Positions 51,734-64,000 of a stretch of DNA of 64,000 nt are shown in pieces. The stretch lies in contig JAHQIY010000008.1 of assembly GCA_019054805.1 (NCBI GenBank), positions 4,511,501-4,575,500 on the forward strand. Reading direction: 5' to 3'. The stretch is from Brachionus manjavacas. Its lineage: Eukaryota; Rotifera; Eurotatoria; Ploima; Brachionidae. The notes below the pieces were generated by a model, which was not told the origin of the DNA, ran no database searches, and saw only the letters and a list, made by a program, of their open reading frames with translations. The translations under genes were made by a program, and so were the position numbers. Each line of letters opens with the position of its first letter. The first letter of the stretch is position 1.

Positions 51734-54700
51734 ATGGACAATGGTAGTGCCAACGGCAACAGCATTGCCAATTCAAGTTTTTTGCACATGGGCGATGTAA
51801 TATCGCTGTACGCCGAAGGCAAAGTATGCGGTTTTATCAGCACACTTGGCTTGGTAGATAGTCGTTGCGTGGTTCATCCACTAGCCGGTGATCTTAAGCA
51901 TCCGCCGAAAAAGTTTCGAGATTGTTTATTTCGTGTATGCCCGCAGAACAGATATTCAGCTCAGAGACAATATTGGAAGCAGTGCAGACAGAATGCGGCT
52001 AGTACAAACCAAAATTTGACCGTGAACCAGAGCATTACCAATCTAGATGAATCGGTCTTGAAAAAGTTACATGTAAAAAAAAAATAATTTTTATTAAATT
52101 TTATTAAAAAAAAATTTAACTAAAGCACGCTGCCGAATTGGAAAAAAAACAAAACGAGACCGAAACTGCCAAACTGATAAACTCGAGCACTCTCATTCAA
52201 TACGGGAGCATAATCCAATTATTACATTTAAAAAGCAATAAATACTTGACCGTGAACAAAAAACTACCGGCACATGTGGAAAAAAATGCCATGAGGGTGT
52301 ACTTGGACTATGCCGGCTCGGAGAGCTCCTGGTTCATTGTTCAGCCGTTTTACAAGCTTCGTTCTCTTGGTGACAAGGTAGTAGTCGGTGATAAAATTGT
52401 TCTGCAGTCGTTCATAGCTATGCAGCCGCTTCATGTAAGCGAAATGGAGCTCAATGACCATCCTGGATGCAAAGAGGTAAGTTAATTTTTTAATATAAGC
52501 TAAGTCGAACACAGGGTTAATAACTTCCTGCCCGAAACTAAACTGTTAAAATTTCTTAAAGATAAATTGCCGTTGGTTAATAGCGCCCATAAAACGAGAT
52601 TTTAATTTAAACCAAAACGATGACCAAACATCGTACCAGAACGTTACCACAGAGGTTTAAATATAAAAATATTTTGACATATTTTTATGTATAGCTTAAT
52701 TCACCATTCGAATTATATTGGCTTTTTAGCACCTGTTTTTTTATAATTAATTAAATAAAATTGTTAATTGTATTACCCGAGCTGTACCTGTCAGCATGAA
52801 TGGCCAAAAAAATATAGTTTTTTTTCTATCTATTTGATTTTTTTTTAAAGGTTAATTTGCTCAATTCGCAGACAAGTTGGAAGGTTGCTTTATTCATCTG
52901 CCACAAAGAGGACAGAAACGATGTACTCAAAAGTGTAAGTTATAATTTTATCTAGTGATTAAAAACAATTTTTCATTAAATTGGGACAAAATTTGTTGAG
53001 ACCGTAAAACTAAAAAAATTATTTATATTTTAATTTTTGTTTTAGTGTTTAAAAAATAATTATCCCTGATTTTCGGACATTTATGAGAAAATTTTAGCTT
53101 ACATTTATCTTTGATAGAAAAGTAAAAAAATTAAAATACATTTTAAAAAAAAGTTTATTAGCTGTTTTTATTTTTTGATCATTCATTTTGTTCTTTAGTC
53201 ATAGAAATAATTGAGTACAAAATTAGTAGGATTTAAATGAATATATATTTTTAAATACATTATTTTAAAAGTTCACTTTAAATTATAACTTATTATTTTT
53301 TATCAACCTTTTTTTATTGTTTTGTTTTTCTTAAATCAACCTAATTAATGGAAAATAGCAATCGTTTCTTATAATCTTAGTATTGATTCATTTTTTTGGC
53401 TGATGTTCGTCTGTGAAAAAATTTTTAAAAATCCAGGATCAGTAAATGTTGTGATTCGCATAGTATTTTATTAAAAAAATTTTTAAGGTAAATTTTTACA
53501 AAAAAAAAACGTTTTAATATTTGGTTCATAAAATTTACCTTTAAAATTGGTTGAAAATAGACATTATTCTTTTTTCTTTTTTAAGTCGCCTATGAGGTGC
53601 AGTTTATAAATTATAAATATAAAAAAATTATTCTAAATCTTAAAGTAATGTCTAATTTAAATCATGCAGAATTTGGAATCATGAAAGATTTAGGTAATTT
53701 TATTTTTAGTCAGATTAAATTTAATGGTTCGAAATAAATAAGTCTTTATATTTTCAAATTATTAGAAAATTCAATTTTATTTTAAAAATCTTCTAAATAG
53801 AAAAGAACCGAATTTTGATAGTTTTCATTTTAAGCTTCGAAGATAATTTGGGTTGAGTGGTGAAAGCTAATCAGATTAACTTTATCCTCTTAAAAAAAGA
53901 TTAAGATAAAGTTTACTATTTTAAATTACACTAACTTGCTGGATAAACCTTTTGAAGCTTGTTCAATCACGAACCTGATGAGAAAATATCTTCAGAAACA
54001 GTTTCGGTGTTCTAAAGATATTACTAAAATATAGCTTTGTTGATATATTAACTTATCAATAAATTTAAAAAAGAGTTTAAAATTTTTATTCTAATCGATA
54101 CTGAAAAAAATATGAGATTAAATTCATAGCTTTCTATGTACATCTTTTTAATGAGATTAATTTATAAAAATTTCAAATTTAAATTCAATTGAAGTTCAAA
54201 CACAAATACTTTTCTTTCGAACAAATTGAAGACTTTATTCTCTGAAAAAGATTACAAACATGATAACATATAATATAAAATTCTTTAAAAAATTAAAATT
54301 GAATTAACTTTATTTTTTAACTATATTAAAGTCGAATGTTTTTTTTAACATGGGTAAAATTTATTCATTTTTTAAGACACGTCAATGTTTGATTTAGTAA
54401 CATGTCACTAAATTCGGATAATAACGTTAAATCCACACATTGGCGTAGCCAAAAATATCAAAAAGGGCGGCCCAAAGTTAAATAATAAATTTCAGAAATT
54501 CCGTTTATTTCATTAGATGGAAATTACAAAAAAATTTATGATAAATAAAAAAACAAATAAAACAAAAATATCTTTACCTTCTATTTTTTTGAAAATTTAC
54601 AATTTACTATTTAAAATAAATCATTGTAAAATTTTACAAATTTAAATTCTTATTTTTGAAGCATTTTATGTTTAAGTTATTCGATTATTATATATTACAG

Positions 54701-57700
54701 TCGACTCTCTTTAATCCGTAACAGACGGGACCGAAAATAACCATTACGGATTAAGTTTTACGGATTATCTTTAATCCGTAAACGAACAAAAATCTTAAAG
54801 TTTTCGGATTAACAAATGTAAATTTTGATACAAAATTTTATTGATAAGAATTTATAGAAATATAGTTTAATAAACATTTAATTTTAAAGTAAACGGAATA
54901 ATTTTTAAATTAATTTTTTTTTAAAAAAGAAGAAATAAATGTCTGGTAACAATTTGAAGTCACACTCGTTAAAATCTTTAGAAGTTTCAAAAAAAATTTG
55001 AACTTAATCTATTGCCTTCTTTGCTTGTTTATAGCTTGTTAATAGCTTTATCGCTTACAGATAGAGGTTCTTGGTCAATTACCTCAACTTCGTCATCACA
55101 ATTTTGATTGTTTTTTTGAGCAATTTCAATTATATCTTGATTTGTTAGGGCCTCGCCCGTCGATTCGTCAGCATCAACGTCTAATCAACATGATATGAAC
55201 TTAGTGTTTTTAAACATGGTTTCAAAAAAAAATTACGAATAAAAGATTGATAATTATAACATGTAGATTTAGAATTTTAATTTATTTTGTTACGAATGGA
55301 AAAATAAACCGAACTAAAATTACGAATAAAAGTGATGAAATTTGTATTGAAAGTATTGGAAATGGGGTAGGGACCGGTGAAAAACTTCCGAATGCCGAAT
55401 TTTACGAATAAAGGAGTTTCGGATTAAAGCGAGTCGACTGTGGTTATGTTATATTTCTTTTGTGACCAAAAAAAAAAATTAGTTGTTGTTTGGTCAAAAT
55501 GAAATTTGTTAGATAATCTTCTGATATTCTTGATGAAATTTTTGCTGAAGTTTACGTTAAAAAAATTCATTTTTTTAACCCCTTACTGTCAAAAATATTT
55601 TAAAATTTTTTTAAAGATTCTTTATTTGTTTCAGGGCACTTTTTATTTCAAAATTAGTCATCTCTAGAATTTCAGTATTCCTTCAAGTACAATACTTTAA
55701 AACTATAAAATTTCTATGAATAGTATTTATATTTAAAATGAACATAAAAAGAAAAAATGTTTGAAGACTTTTATTGGGATCAATCCTTCCAAGGACTTGG
55801 TGTTAATGTTTATATCAATTGAATCTCGTACATATTTGATTTTTTCCATTTCCAACCAATTTTAAAGACTACAGTTTTTGCGTCTTATTAGTTTTTTTCT
55901 CTTACTTCTTTTCTATTGATAACACTGTGAATTAAAGAAAAAAAACAGCATCAAAATGAAAAACCAAGTAACTTTTTTGTAAAAGCATAAAAATAAAAAC
56001 AGTTCAGGGAATTTTATCACCCAGATTCAGCTTATGCAAAACTTTCTAAAAATAAAAATTGCAGTGTATTTTTAGAAGTTTGATTTAGGTGATATATAAA
56101 ATTTAATTTTAAAATTTAATTTTGTCCCCCAAAAATAAAACTTTTATGGCTCTATGTTTTTCTGTCAATTAATTTTACAAAAATCAATTAATATTTTATT
56201 CAAAACGTCAATTAAAATAAATAAAAATCAATTGATAATTTGAATGTCCATTAAAAAAACAAAAATCAATAAAATAGTTCAAAAATCAATTAATTAAACA
56301 AGAGTCAATTTTAAATAAAAGAAATACATAAAATTGAAGATTTGTCAATAGAATATTCTTATGTCAATTTAATAAATTATTGTCAATTAATTATATTATG
56401 GAATCAATAAAAATAATGTTAATGTAAATAAAATTTACATGGAACTTTTAATCTCATTTTGAATTATATTAAAACCTTTTTTTTTCAACACTCAAAAATC
56501 TAAAAAAAATCTAAAATGAACCTAGTTCCAGATATAATCGAGTTTGAGGATTATCCAGACCAAGCTATAGACGTTCCTTTAAGAAAAACAAGACCTGTCG
56601 GATGACCAAAAAAAATAAACCACAAATAAATAAAAAAATAATAGACCAAGTGCTTTAATGCTCAATTAATTTTTTGTTAAATTTTTCTCTAATAAATGCT
56701 GTTTTTTTTTAATCTGATTAAACTTTTTTTTTATTGATAAATAAAATTTTAATTGATAAAATAAAAATTAATGGACTTTTGTTTTTTTAATTGACGACTT
56801 ATTTATTGACGTTTTTTTTTTAAATTAATTGATTTTTGAAAAATTAATTTACAGAAAATCATAATGCCAACTTTTATCAACATTTTTTCCAATTTTCATA
56901 AAATTTAATAGTTCCAAAAAACTTTTTCAACATTATAAATTTTTTTTTACTAGGGTGATGTAATTCGGTTGTTTCACGCCGAACAAGAAAAATATCTGAC
57001 TTGCGATGAATACAGAGGCAAAAGAGAAGTGTTTATTCGAAGTACAGCAAGATTAGCGGCCACATCCGCTACATCGTCCAAAGCTCTATGGGAAGTTGAA
57101 ATAGTCAAAAAAGATCCGTGTCGCGGAGGTGCTTCTCGGTGGTCTAACTTGTTTCGATTCAAACATTTAGCATCTGGAAACTATTTGGCTGCTGAAGTTG
57201 ACAATGATTCAACAGAGGATCAAATGCGCTCTAAATTGCGTGGCGATGCATCAAACTTGGTTTACTATCTTGTTAGTGTTACCAATGCTTTTGATCACTC
57301 GACCATATTTGAGTTGGATGAAACAACGATCACTATTCATGACTCACCGGTGCCGCGTAATTCCTATGTAAGACTAAAACACTGGGAAACTGGAACATGG
57401 GTGCACAGCACTGCTTTGTTGATAGATAAAGAAGAGGAAAAGCCAGTTATGTGGAAAATAGGCTGTGCTAAAATAAAAGAAGACAAAGAGGCTTTTCAGC
57501 TGATTCCAGTTCCGACAAATGAGGTCAGAGATTTGGACTTTGCCACTGATGCAGCCAAGATGCTCAAAGTGTTCGCGGAAAAAATCCTAATTAATCAACT
57601 TTTAATGAACGATAAACGATCCTTGTGTGCTTTGTTAACTGATCTTATTTTTTTTGTTGCCGAATATGAAAATGGAAACACTAATGACTCCTTGGAGATT

Positions 57701-60700
57701 CAATTGAGTAAACCCAATCGCGAAAGACAAAAATTGATGAGGGAACAAAATATTTTGCAGCAAATTTTTAGAATTCTGAAAGCACCATTTGTCGAATATG
57801 GCAACAAAAAAGGCCTACAAACTCACGAGCTTAAAGATCCAAAGCACGGACTACAGCAAATATTTCGACTTTGCTATAGAATACTTAAACACTCGCAGCA
57901 ATCCTACAGAAAAAATCAAGTAAGTAAAAAATAACTTATTGCCAGAAGAACTTGAAAAATAAATTAGTTTTTAGCATTTTTTTTCAAATATTCCTCCATT
58001 TTATTAAAAAATTGATTAAAAAAAAGAAAAAATTAAGTAAAATTAAACAAAAAACATATTTTTTATTCTTTTCTATTAAAACATAATAAAGGGTGTCCAA
58101 AAAAGAATGTTCAAAATTTTGACAAGTAAAAAAAATATTGACCGAATTAAACAAACGTTGTACAAATATTTAATAGACTTTAAAAATTAGGAAAATTAAA
58201 AAATCTAGAAAACTAATGTTTGGTTTTTAGAAAAATAATAATTTTTTTCAATGAACATGAGTATATGGAAATTTTATTACGAAAAATCGTCTAAAAAATT
58301 CAGAATTCAAGGAAAATTAAAATTTTTTATGAGAAAAAGATTTTTGTAAATGATCTAAATTTTAGTCTTTCACTAAAAAGTGAAAAATGATCCTTAAAAT
58401 CGAATTGTGATTCTAGAAAAAAATAATGATGTTTTGTGAACTTTTATCTAGATGACGGTAAGGTTCGCGCGGCCTAAAACTACAGCTTTATCTAAATTTG
58501 ACTTTTCCGACCAAAAATTCTTATTATAAAAGAAAAATTAATGAACTGATCAAGCAAAAATTTTTAAAAAAATGAGCTCAAAAATATGCTCAGAGATTTT
58601 TAAGATTTCTGATTTTCAAAAAATTCGAGTTAGGGGGTAAATAAAGGATGAGATACAAAAATCGTGAAAAAAATTTTTCATCTCCGGTAAATTTTGATGT
58701 CCAAAACTTTTTTTTAAAAACATATGAGTGCTTCATTTTTTAGCTTTAAGGATCTGTTAAGAAAAATTAAAAATATTTACTTAATCAAAAAATTAAAAAT
58801 ATTTATTTTTGGAAATAAAAGGATACAACTAATAATTTTGGTGCTAATATTTGAAAATGGGTAGACAAAAAAATAATTTTTTTTACTCCCACCTAAAAAA
58901 ATGGCTTTTCTAGGTTTTCATATATGAGCCCCAGTGTAGCGAGGTAATTCTCCCTCAGCGACCACCGGAACAGCGGCGCTGTTTACACTCCAAGTGTCCA
59001 AGACAGTCACCCACCAACCTTTTTTTATTAACACTGTAAAGCTGCTTCCATAGACTACTTCCCTACTTACTTTTTTTTATATTAAGATGTTATGGTCTTC
59101 ACGGTATTTATAGTTAACTTGATAAAATTCTTAATAAAGTTTGAGTGTAGCATGATTCTAGAAAAAGGACAATCTAAGAGCTTCAAAGTGTGTACAGGAA
59201 TCACACAAGGGTGCATTCTCTCCCCGTCACTATTCCTAATACTGATTGACTATGTAATGAAGAAAACAACTTTCAATGTGAGGGGTATGCAATGGAATAA
59301 ACTTAGACTTTGCGGATGATCTGGTGCTAATATCTAATAATGAAAAACTTTTGCATTATTCGTGGTCGAAAAAGTCAAATTCAGATAGTACTGTAGTTTT
59401 GACCAACACGAATTTCACTCAGAAAGTTCCTTCTCCTCTTTTAAATTAAAAATTTGACTTGGAGGCGTATTTGAGATTTTTTCCGGTTTTCAGTAAAAAA
59501 TTTACAAGGCTAAGCAGATTTACCTTTGGATTCTCTGATTATATTTAGAACATGGTGATTTTCTAATTCAAATTCTAATATGTTGAATAGGAACTAAATA
59601 TTAAAGTCTAATAGAATAAATAAAATAATATTCGTGTTTTTTAAATAAAATGAAAAAAATTAATAAAAAATTTTGAAATTAAATATTCAAATACTTTTTT
59701 TCCAAGGAATATATTGCGAAACAATTTGGTTTCATGCAAAATCATATTGGTTTTGACGTTCTAGCTGAGGAGACAATAACAGCCTTGTTGCATAGTAATA
59801 GGCAGCTTTTGGAAAAACACATAACTCGCAAAGAGATAGACACGTTTGTTAATCTGGTCAAATCCAACAAGGACTACAAATTTCTAGAGTATTTGTCTGA
59901 TTTATGCGTGGCCAACAACGAAGCTATTCCTAGCACCCAAGAGCTCATTTGCAATTGTGTCCTCAAAACAAAAGAAAATTCAAGTATTCTCATAGAAACA
60001 AGGTATTCCATTTTTTTACGCTGATTTATTTTACAATTTTTTTAATCAATAAAGATTTGAGAGATGCAATGAAAGAATAGTTTTAATGGAGAGTACAGAC
60101 GATTTTTCCAATCGTCTTAAATCTCAGATTCAATTTTCAGGTAGTAATAGCAGCTTAACAATCTATTCAGCTCCCATAGATGACCGAGAATCAAATTTAA
60201 ATGACTCAATATATCAAGCTATTACTAGTTCAGACGAAAATATTATTCTTTATTGGGATAACTATGCGATTCAGCTCCAAGAACTGGTCAAATCAGAGTC
60301 AATATACGAAAGAAATATGCTTGAGTATTATCGCTATCAGCTTAATTTGTTTTCCAATATGTGCCTGAATCGACAGTACTTGGCCATTGAAGAACTAAGC
60401 ACTAATTTGACAATTGAATTAATTTTAAAGTCAGTTATTTTCAATTTAAAAATTTTATTTTAATTTTACTTCTAGATGTATGCAAGATGATATGCTAAAC
60501 CACGATCTAAGGGCTTCGTTTTGTCGTCTCATGTTACATCTACACGTAAAATTTTTAATTTTTTTTTTACTTTTTTGTTGCTGATTGAAAATTTAATTGA
60601 AGATTTTGTTATTTTTTGGAGATATTTTAAGATTTGGTACTTAAATTTCAAAATTGAATTTTCAATTTTTTTAATTCAAGTATTTAACTGGAAATTTTAG

Positions 60701-63700
60701 TGAAACCCAAATAAAATTTAACAGCTTAAAAAAAGGAAATGTACAATGATTTCCTGCTCAGTAAATTAAGCAAAGTGTAGCAATTTTTAATTAACTTACT
60801 ACTAAAGTCTAATAATTGTAAACGAAATTTAAAAAAGATAAAAATAGAACAAAAATAATATTTGTGTAATTAGTTTATTAAACTCTCACAAAAAAAAAAT
60901 ATTAACAAAAATAAAAAAAATGTATAGATTTTATTTGAATTTGAATTTTATTAAACTAAATCGTAACTTTATTAAATTTAAAAAAAAATTAAAAAAAGAA
61001 TACCGACTAATTTTAATTTACCTTTTTATTGCAATCTTTTGAGGGACAGGTTTCTGGCGTTTGCGAATCGTACATTGGCATTCAAGAGTATAAGTTTTTT
61101 ATATACAGGTCATAGCTATTAAATGAATATTTTAATTACCAAAAAATTATCATGTGTCAAAACTTATTAAAAATAATTATTTCTTACAACTAATGGAATA
61201 GAATGACTCAGTCGTGTCCCAACATATCTCTCACTCAACTCAAAAAGCCGATCCGAGACTGTTAGTAGTTTAAGTTTATTAAAAGCTTCATGATTCACGA
61301 TGTTGGAGGCAGTATCATATTTTAAGGATAGATCTTACTGCTGTATTCTGAATTGCTTGTAATTTTTTGATATTATTTTCTGAAAATAAATTCAAGCAAG
61401 GAAAAGAATAGTCTAAAATTGATCCGACTAAAGATTTATTTAAATTTCCTAGTGTGTTTTGAGTAAGACCCAATATATTATTTTTTTGGAATAAATATTA
61501 TAAATTAGAGAAAGTTTTATTAAAATTTGTGGATAATTTTATTATCGTTCTTTAATTAATTTTCAGAACAAAATTATAAAAAAAATTAATTTTGGATTAT
61601 TTTAAAAAAATATGTTGAATATGAAATTTTCAAATTTTCTGATTTTAACTTTATAAATTTTTTTTTTTGAATTCAAAACACTTTTTTCGAGAAAGATTAC
61701 TGATTTTAAGATTTTTATAAACAACAACAGTTTAGGAAAAAAATTGACTTGAAACATGAAAATGATTAAATTTATATGTTTTAAGTTAATTAAGCAAAAA
61801 ATTTAAGTTTGATTTTAATTCTGAAAAACTAATTCTTAAATGGATTATTAATAACCTGGCACATAATATTAATAATATAGGGGCATATGAAAATTTATTC
61901 AAATCAAATACAAGATTAATAAAAAAATTGAAAGAAAAAAATTAATTTTGAGTTAAATAAAATATTTAGAGCAAAAATATTAAATTACATTTTTATTTGC
62001 TCCAAAAATCAGTATTTTCTCTATTAACGCACAATATATTGAACGATTTAAAATATTATTCCAATATTGAAAACTTGGACGACTGAAACCATTTTGATTC
62101 TATTTGAAATCCCAATTATTTTATTAAATGCCCGGTTAATTAGTAGCCTTTTAAATTTTAATTTGGTGCATCATCAAAAATCAAGATTAAATCATTTTCT
62201 CTGAATTTTTCCAATTGTTGATTTTTGAACAAAAATCAATTCAAATTTTGATCATATCACTATTTTTGTAAAAATTATTTTATCTTTAAAAATTCAATGT
62301 TTTTAGGTTGACAGAGAACCTCAAGAACTTGTGACACCTGTAAATTACGCTCGTTTATGGATCAATATACCACTGGCAATAAATATCGAAAAGTAATTAA
62401 CTTTTAAAATTTTTAAAAAATTCAAATGGTCTTAACTTTACTGTGTTAATTTAAAGATGCAAAAACATTAGATTAAAGTAAGGATTATGAAAAATAATTA
62501 ATATATATTAAACAAGCTGAACTCATTCCTAACCCTGTTTTAAAAATTTAATAAAGTTTTATAATAAAATCCAATGTTGTCATAAAATTCTAAGCTTGTT
62601 TTATTCCATAAATTCGATTTTTGAAGACAAGCTTTAGATATTGCATTTAAATGTAACCTGGATGCACTGTTCCATTATTTTTCACATTAAAATGATACTT
62701 AGATTCTATGGCTTAAATAAAATATTTTAATACAAAGCTATGATGCTGCCAATGAAGAAGAAAGCAACATGGTTTTTTCGGAAAGCCAAGCGAGGATAGA
62801 AGGCGTACGCAAGCGCTTTGTTCGATCATCGCCTTCTAGCCCAGTTAGTTCAAACAATTTATTTCAAAATGATATAAAGTATGAGCCCGAGGACACCAAG
62901 TTTCAGGCTACCATCGACTTTGTTCGGGCCTACTTAGACAACGTGGTCCAGCAAACCTCTCCTTTTGGTGACAAAGAGCAAAATAAATTAACATTTGAAG
63001 TAATGTTGTCAAAAAATTAAAAAAAAAATTTTTATTTTTTTACTAAAAGGTTGTTAATTTGGCCAAAAATTTAATCTATTTTGGCTTCTATAGCTTTAAA
63101 GATTTGCTAAAGTTGACCAAAACTTTATTGGAAATACTTGACCATGACGATAACACAACAAATTCAGGTTCAAGCGAGGACCAAGGTTTGGGACATTTTT
63201 TATTATTTTAAGCATGTTTGATTGTTATATTTTTTTTTTATTTTTATTTGGCACTAAATTTAGCATCAAACATATTCAGCCAAAGTAACAAACCCTTAAA
63301 AAATTCAACTCAACTGAGCCATAAAAACTCTGTTGACCAAAGTGAAAAAACACCAGAAAAAAGGTCTTGCTCACATTTAGGCTTGATGCACTTTGCGAAT
63401 GACTATAGTAATGAGACACATATCAACATTCGCACTCACTCGACAAAGCGCATGAATCGCTATAGCTCGAATTTTCTCACCCATGAAAATATTGTGTATG
63501 AAACCAAGCTTAGGATAATAGACATCCTGCAGGTTTGTTGTGTTATTTGCTGCATTTTCCCAAGGCCGTCTTGTTACTTAAATTAAAAAAAAATTTAATT
63601 TAATTTATTTTATTGATAAATATTTAGCAATTCAAAGCAATTCTATACTCAGTCTGAATAAACTAGAAGACTATTTTTTATACAATGAAGAGGAAGAGAG

Positions 63701-63908
63701 TGTGTCGCGCAATTACTTGATGTTGATCGAAGATCGCTTTATGGCCAAGGTAGCCGAAGAGTCGCAAGCAAGCGAGTCGGCATCAACTTTTGGCAACAAA
63801 ACTCTGATTGTCCAAGGTTCGAGCAGCTCTAACCAATCGGCTAACCTTTTAACTCATGCCGACAATTTAATAATTAAGGCTAAAGTCTATATACTGGAAA
63901 TATTGGAG
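51734..63908 (+). CDS. ITPR: Inositol 1,4,5-trisphosphate receptor, N-terminal half (gene runs off the window)
   Basis: Exons are 51734-52072, 52126-52476, 52851-52934, 56954-57919, 59707-60002, 60055-60429, 60476-60545, 62307-62392, 62738-62999 and 63050-63185, then either 63264-63532 or 63628-63908. All are GT-AG with matching phases. About 1,080 residues are encoded here of a family length near 2,700. The suppressor/MIR region begins [16 protein letters not shown]. The IP3-binding core shows R-S-T-A-R (mammals RTTGR), [11 protein letters not shown] and Y-R-K near residue 577, which supply the basic contacts to IP3. Later come [15 protein letters not shown], [12 protein letters not shown] and [16 protein letters not shown] blocks. 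It forms the ER Ca2+-release channel; pore exons lie outside. Introns 3, 4 and 7 hold transposon remnants. Confidence 0.95.
54420..54490 (-). repeat. hAT terminus remnant in ITPR intron 3
   Basis: The words ATTGGCGTAGCC and GGGCGGCCC resemble the CAGTGGCGTAGC-type end at 38289. No partner end was found. Confidence 0.35.
54698..55440 (-). mobile_element. Pogo/Tigger-like element, internally deleted, in ITPR intron 3
   Basis: The ends CAGTCGACTCTCTTTAATCC and the inverse of CAGTCGACTCGCTTTAATCC form inverted repeats. The left flank is TA, the right flank TG (a mutated TA). On the minus strand, about 55185-55020 encodes [20 protein letters not shown] followed by an acidic stretch and [11 protein letters not shown], like the acidic C-terminus of Tigger transposases. 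The catalytic part is missing. Long A/T tracts fill the rest. Confidence 0.75.
56157..56858 (+). mobile_element. TIR element with AT-hook-encoding remnant, ITPR intron 3
   Basis: The ends TTTTCTGTMAATTAATTTT and their inverse, with following CAAAAATCAATTAAT words, pair over about 60 bp. Inside, from 56516, a short ORF reads [20 protein letters not shown], then LRKTRPVG, a stop, and PKKINHK. Restoring the expected Arg would give an AT-hook (GRPKK), so this looks like a transposase C-terminus killed by CGA to TGA. Confidence 0.6.
58085..58230. repeat. Family Y fragment in ITPR intron 4
   Basis: It starts TAAAGGGTGTCCAAAAAAGA and continues with the left arm also seen at 41345. The other end was not located. 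Confidence 0.45.
58925..59025. repeat. G+C-rich island in ITPR intron 4, probable LINE or SINE piece
   Basis: About 100 bp (around GCGAGGTAATTCTCCC and CAGCGGCGCTGTTTACACTC) stand out in base composition from the surrounding A/T DNA. It lies just before a LINE fragment on the same strand and may belong to it. Confidence 0.4.
59080..59345 (+). pseudogene. LINE reverse-transcriptase fragment in ITPR intron 4
   Basis: The frames read [20 protein letters not shown] followed by LILIDYVM and then LDFADDLVL after one frame shift. These are the Q-G-x-x-L-S-P and (F/Y)ADD boxes. Confidence 0.8.
61180..61475 (-). pseudogene. LINE ORF2 C-terminal fragment in ITPR intron 7
   Basis: The minus strand reads [38 protein letters not shown], then after a shift [20 protein letters not shown] and [10 protein letters not shown]. 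This is the C-terminal end of a LINE ORF2 different from the other fragments. Confidence 0.75.
63264..63532 (+). other. ITPR alternative exon candidate 11a
   Basis: It has a TTTAG acceptor, begins CA, is 269 nt long, and has a GTTTGT donor. It needs one base from exon 10 (63050-63185) and ends in phase 0. The encoded end reads [20 protein letters not shown] then ILQ, the family's TKLKIIEILQ segment. The middle is Ser/Asn/His-rich and variable. Confidence 0.8.
63628..63908 (+). other. ITPR alternative exon candidate 11b
   Basis: It has a TATTTAG acceptor, also begins CA, is 281 nt long, and has a GTATTA donor. The phase pair is the same as for 11a. It ends [20 protein letters not shown] then EILE, clearly related to the end of 11a. 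Read directly after 11a, the frame meets TGA after nine codons. Confidence 0.7.
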
Positions 63909-64000
63909 GTATTAGGCTTAAAATTGCTTTCTGACCCAACCATTATCGGCCTTGCATCCTTTAAATTTGATTTTATATTTTTTATTTTTTTATATTTTTT

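Follow-up and report, generated by a model that had tools for sequence, protein, structure and literature searches.

Two tandem, probably mutually exclusive exons encoding a loop of an IP3 receptor in the rotifer Brachionus manjavacas

Among calcium-release channels, mutually exclusive exons are described for the ryanodine receptors, the sister family of the IP3 receptors (IP3Rs): a survey of insect channels places them in the second SPRY domain in 21 of 26 insects (PMC6026295), and a study of Tribolium names the exclusive exons 19a and 19b of its ryanodine receptor (PMC4204029). As to the IP3Rs of insects, the same survey, published in 2018, states that exclusive exons were not mapped and cannot be dismissed (PMC6026295). 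For the Tribolium IP3R, the Tribolium study reports an optional exon of 8 residues (residues 922-929) and describes this exon as conserved in human IP3R1 (PMC4204029). Here we analyze a 64,000-nucleotide stretch of the Brachionus manjavacas genome (hereafter the window; G000:C8:4511501-4575500, from a genome of 114 Mb in 61 contigs), in which an IP3R gene, gene A, contains two adjacent versions of one exon, 11a and 11b. Taken as a whole, the evidence is best explained by a mutually exclusive pair that swaps a loop of the channel in one of the two IP3R genes found in this Brachionus genome, and we regard this as very probable; the animal probably makes two channel forms that differ in a regulatory loop.

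The Brachionus pair is like that of the insect ryanodine receptors in being an exclusive exon pair in a family of calcium-release channels, but it lies in the other channel and in another domain. It shares with the optional exon of the Tribolium IP3R the same loop of the same channel and, probably, an alternatively spliced character (PMC4204029). However, the Tribolium exon is small and either in or out, whereas in Brachionus two large copies would be swapped and a skip from exon 10 to exon 12 breaks the reading frame. Exclusive exons are well known as a kind, but in an IP3R they are apparently unreported: among the titles and openings of abstracts listed in searches of open-licence papers, there was no report of such a pair. 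The locus thus offers a concrete and testable case of exclusive exons in an IP3R, in another phylum than the insects of the 2018 survey (PMC6026295).

Gene A is read on the forward strand, starts at 51734 and, according to the gene model and protein matches, extends past the window to about 83058. Its exons 1-10 (51734..63185, with exon 1 modelled at 51734-52072) are supported by the match to IP3R1, by a GT-AG open-frame exon model and by the match to a B. calyciflorus protein. The product matches the IP3R1 chain in pieces between residues 237 and 1059, with an E value of 4.6e-237 for the whole, vs. only 0.00087 for a fragment of ryanodine receptor 2. The gene is therefore an IP3R, as had been claimed in an earlier sequence-only reading of the window, and it is closer to IP3Rs than to ryanodine receptors along the IP3-binding and armadillo regions.

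The common upstream exon 10 (63050..63185, forward strand, exon model) ends in phase 1 at the donor AAG/GTTTGG. On the same strand follow exon 11a (63264..63532, 269 nt), an intron of 95 nt (63533..63627, seen in the sequence) and exon 11b (63628..63908, 281 nt). Both copies are 3n+2 long and open with CA, and both take up phase 1 (the donor base is the G at 63185) and end in phase 0; these coordinates, lengths, starts and phases, and the 95-nt gap, had been given by the sequence-only reading correctly to the base. It had also proposed that either copy fits between exon 10 and the next exon, and the genome downstream of the window supplies that exon. The intron after 11b (63909..64000 within the window, forward strand) ends at 64002 and is 94 nt long, and the common exon 12 (FILNVRLDYR..., 64003-64203, forward strand, beyond the window) follows, both placed by the downstream genome and the exon model. 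Exon 12 opens in phase 0 with FILNVRLDYRLTYLL, a segment that in IP3R1 comes directly after the helix DTKLKIIEILQ. Both 10-11a-12 and 10-11b-12 have an open frame and restore the continuity from this helix to exon 12 that is found in IP3R1. By contrast, translation of 10-11a-11b-12 confirms the stop claimed after nine codons of 11b, and in 10-12, where both copies are skipped, the frame is lost and a stop follows seven residues after the junction. Because of the asymmetric phase (1 to 0), an mRNA with both copies or neither stops early, and only a one-copy mRNA would yield the full channel. With the splice sites as given, inclusion of exactly one of 11a and 11b is the sole choice that keeps the frame. 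The splice site in this loop of mammalian IP3R1 is presumably the one named SIII, as the sequence-only reading had put it; optional exons of that type are skipped in frame, and exon 11, with its out-of-frame 10-12 join, is not such an exon.

There are two copies of exon 11 rather than three, since the remainder of the interval between exons 10 and 12 consists of introns of 78, 95, and 94 nt. A further copy beyond the window, which the sequence-only reading had thought possible, did not materialize: the next exon is exon 12, whose start at 64003 follows 11b by 94 bases, and this rules out a third copy before exon 12. A search of the genome for other copies of 11b at E values up to 10, in which the best candidates were scored, returned only 11b itself.

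Both copies look like coding sequence. None of 11785 overlapping 94-codon windows in the joined introns of gene A is free of stops. The codon log-odds are 0.43 bits per codon for 11a and 0.59 for 11b, neither of which belonged to the training exons, and these values fall inside the range of 85 coding windows (mean 0.53, minimum 0.31) that were the training exons themselves; both exceed all 236 intron windows (maximum 0.04). The codon use of both resembles that of coding sequence in the proposed frame and in no other.

Relatives conserve both copies, 11b in two other Brachionus species and 11a in one. P0121, an IP3R of B. plicatilis (isoform X6) with 95 percent identity to gene A across 75 percent of the query, matches the first 77 residues of 11a, those that can be compared, at 70 positions and 11b at 89 of 94. 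In B. calyciflorus, protein P0154 (2966 aa, from a cluster of 23 sequences) reads 10-11b-12 without 11a; searched against gene A, it aligns with 63627-63926 and with no part of 11a. At the protein level, 75 of the 94 residues of 11b are identical there, including an identical run of 30, which falls inside the range of the neighbouring exons (66/88 for exon 9, 42/45 for exon 10, and 60/67 for exon 12).

Several observations weigh against an exclusive pair. The evidence for the pair comes from genomic DNA and protein records, and among the best 120 of 2541 protein matches none reads 10-11a-12 in a species that also bears 11b. P0121 carries both exons, joined as HENI-DNRHPAA-TQSNS, and among 90 in-frame combinations of donor and acceptor, 63532-63879, a join that retains all of 11a and the last 30 nt of 11b, is the best (donor 7.1, acceptor 6.4). 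A profile of the exon 11 end (last 18 residues, 45 distinct sequences, with the four named Brachionus proteins excluded) gives 11b only 0.8 bits; 158 of 5000 shuffles scored at least as high, with 3115 of the 5000 being reported at all.

One alternative is that one copy is dead or dying, with 11b functional and 11a an unused relic, or the reverse. The acceptor of 11a scores -3.7, below all of the 19 modelled constitutive acceptors scored by leave-one-out (minimum 1.5), and the B. calyciflorus protein lacks 11a, both of which favor a relic. However, 11a is stop-free over 89 codons with coding-like codon use, its conserved residues in B. plicatilis include three R-x-x-S motifs, and its helix fits the family better than that of 11b, so that we consider a relic improbable.

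It is less probable still that other splice sites bring both exons into one mRNA, through either the P0121 join or 63532-63879. The record that contains both exons and the high rank of the latter join would fit such joint use. However, the P0121 join requires a 20-nt intron with splice scores of -2.1 and -11.2, whereas the 17 modelled introns printed for the two genes are at least 38 nt long (a 48-nt alternative exists for the shortest), and it deletes the start of a conserved helix. Further, removal of 20 bases inside 11a from the DNA studied here gives the same DNRHPAA peptide across the join, except for one residue after it, which would be consistent with a gene predictor having fitted the two exons to a single frame. 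The join in P0121 is probably such an annotation error, and the public B. plicatilis record is then probably wrong at exon 11. The 63532-63879 variant, for its part, would repeat the helix start and waste the conserved remainder of 11b, and the B. calyciflorus protein has 11b without 11a.

Returning to the exclusive pair, it plausibly goes back to a tandem duplication of an ancestral exon 11 of phase 1 to 0. The claim that the ends of the two exons align holds: the best local alignment of 11a and 11b joins their 3' ends, with gaps of one and four residues, and its score of 56 was reached by 3 of 2000 shuffles. The duplication that had been read from it is less evenly supported, in that 11a fits the exon-end family profile (20.0 bits) and 11b hardly does. 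Since the family profile barely recognizes 11b, it contributes less to the case for duplication than do position, phase and the alignment between the two exons. DNA comparison adds little: the introns are uninformative as a trace of duplication (49 of 1000 shuffles for the AT-rich middle and last introns, and 905 of 1000 for the first and middle), and the best DNA match between 11a and 11b (20 of 1000 shuffles) is out of register.

A second IP3R gene in the same genome provides a reference for the ancestral state. It lies on contig C20 from 1110577 to beyond 1120105 (modelled to 1120105, with matching frames further downstream) and is 45-77 percent identical to gene A in matched stretches. It has one exon 11, of 191 nt and phase 1 to 0, that ends with VYETKLKILDILE and scores 25.7 bits against the exon-end profile; its alignment score with 11b was reached by 10 of 2000 shuffles and that with 11a by none of 2000. 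The C20-type proteins P0022 (B. plicatilis) and P0155 (B. calyciflorus) have one exon-11-type segment each, and in P0122 a single 11a-like segment runs straight into FILNVRLDYR. A tree of the region (15 rows) supports the C20-type clade (95/96) and leaves the gene-A-type rows unresolved. The simplest history would be a single exon 11 followed by duplication in gene A, with 11b more likely a much-diverged copy of exon 11 than a new exon fitted into the slot. In this history, 11a, which has basic R-x-x-S motifs, would have retained the ancestral helix start; in 11b the helix start is diverged and an acidic block is strongly conserved.

The swapped segment comes after a block that aligns with IP3R1 861-901 and before the helix near residue 966, and in ITPR2 terms it is flanked by blocks matching 859-894 and 956 onward; its placement after the LLEILDHD segment, as first proposed, was borne out. 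By homology to solved IP3Rs, each version would contribute its own loop, some 80 residues long, together with the first part of the helix that continues into exon 12. The corresponding part of mammalian IP3R2, and probably that of IP3R3, is a target of protein kinase A (PKA). The PKA site of IP3R2 is Ser937 (PMC5471599), which lies between the blocks 859-894 and 956 onward and, in a reptile ITPR2 record, after the ILD at 894 and ahead of the helix that is at 969. In IP3R3, Ser916 and Ser934 are the PKA sites (PMC5471599); both come after the aligned block ending at 893, and presumably they also precede the helix. Exon 11a has a net charge of +4 and three R-x-x-S motifs, the same three being present in B. 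plicatilis, and 11b has a net charge of -7 and no R-x-x-S in the 11b sequences of any of the three species, which confirms the basic and acidic characters that had been ascribed to the two exons. Motif counts are weak evidence, but it is reasonable to suppose that the swap of 11a and 11b may act as a kinase switch; its likely effect would be to change the control of the channel by kinases or partners, in a loop where mammalian IP3R2 and IP3R3 bear PKA sites. Vertebrates appear to vary this loop through three IP3R genes and a small optional exon, whereas the rotifer appears to swap a whole exon within one gene. Such an exon swap would amount to a natural experiment on the function of the loop.

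How one exon is chosen is a separate question. We favor a choice at the level of splicing in which 11b would be the default and 11a would need assistance owing to its weak acceptor. That 11b is the default is suggested by the 11a acceptor being weaker than all 19 modelled constitutive ones; the 11b acceptor, at 3.2, is inside their range. Alternatively, exclusivity might arise only through nonsense-mediated decay of the out-of-frame mRNAs, with splicing itself uncontrolled. This is a serious possibility, although not the one that we prefer: both wrong products stop early and no special device would be necessary, but many transcripts would be wasted, and the weak 11a acceptor and a complementarity between introns hint at control.

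This complementarity recalls the docking and selector layout set out for tandem exclusive exons by Ivanov and Pervouchine (PMC6071210). The sequence CAAGGCCG (63561..63568, forward strand), a candidate selector after 11a, is the exact complement of CGGCCTTG (63947..63954, forward strand), a candidate docking site before exon 12, and their pairing would loop out 11b, which we offer as a lead only. A candidate weaker selector after 11b, AGGCT (63914..63918, forward strand), pairs with 63948-63952 at a probability of 0.57-0.63 when the intron is folded alone, but the minimum-energy structure of that intron lacks this pairing. Among the pairing signals, the exact GC-rich run is the one that stands out: an 8-base complement with at least five G or C was found in 4 of 5000 shuffled pairs, and in 2 of 4000 pairs drawn at random among 119 intron pieces, with a threshold set after sight of the run and with three intron pairs examined. 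The hybridization energies between the introns are ordinary, with equal or greater stability in 644 of 1000 shuffles for the middle and last introns, in 914 of 1000 for the intron after exon 10 with the middle one, and in 258 of 1000 for the intron after exon 10 with the last one. The pair probabilities of the stem, 0.93-0.99, drop to 0.10-0.16 in the longer stretch 63050-64203. It is conceivable, but rather unlikely, that these elements form an RNA-structure switch for PKA-like phosphorylation, in which the stem loops out 11b and selects 11a, and the competing AGGCT frees 11b. If this is true, a rotifer would have a docking and selector system of two exons, located in the loop for which vertebrates have PKA sites in separate genes (IP3R2 and IP3R3). 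It would resemble the Dscam-type systems in its adjacent exons of one phase class and its possible competing intron pairings, but would differ from them in having just two, very diverged copies, and the likeness is known here from the introns of one genome.

A steric block between exons too close to join, in favor of which the gap of only 95 nt may be cited, or incompatible spliceosomes, is very unlikely. The gap should permit joining, since shorter introns, down to 38 nt, are modelled in both genes (46-53 nt in gene A and 38-55 nt in the paralogue, from models only), and the splice sites are ordinary GT-AG sites with no donor of the U12 type; both ideas were rejected on these grounds.

Exon repeats are also present in records from other animals. 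In the IP3R of Lingula anatina (P0002), starts of exon 12 occur in succession, with FILNVRLDYR at residue 954 and FILNVRLDYY at 993, possibly another exclusive pair that was annotated as both included. Like the Brachionus pair, it is a tandem copy in the same channel, at a neighbouring exon; it differs in that exon 12 is the one repeated, and it is known from protein. The Lingula repeat may hint that the exon 11-12 stretch was duplicated more than once. In P0001, a record of Acipenser sinensis labelled UNVERIFIED_CONTAM, there are two nearly unchanged copies of the stretch of exons 10-11, which is probably an assembly or annotation error.

Elsewhere in gene A, the segment 52559-52657, between exons 2 and 3, encodes 33 residues that match P0154 residues 234-266 at 88 percent. 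It was absent from the initial gene model, and the model of the C20 paralogue has no intron there; it is probably a further exon of gene A, perhaps an optional one. The intron before exon 5 contains, at 59086-59449, broken pieces that resemble a reverse transcriptase, and these are probably the remains of a retroelement.

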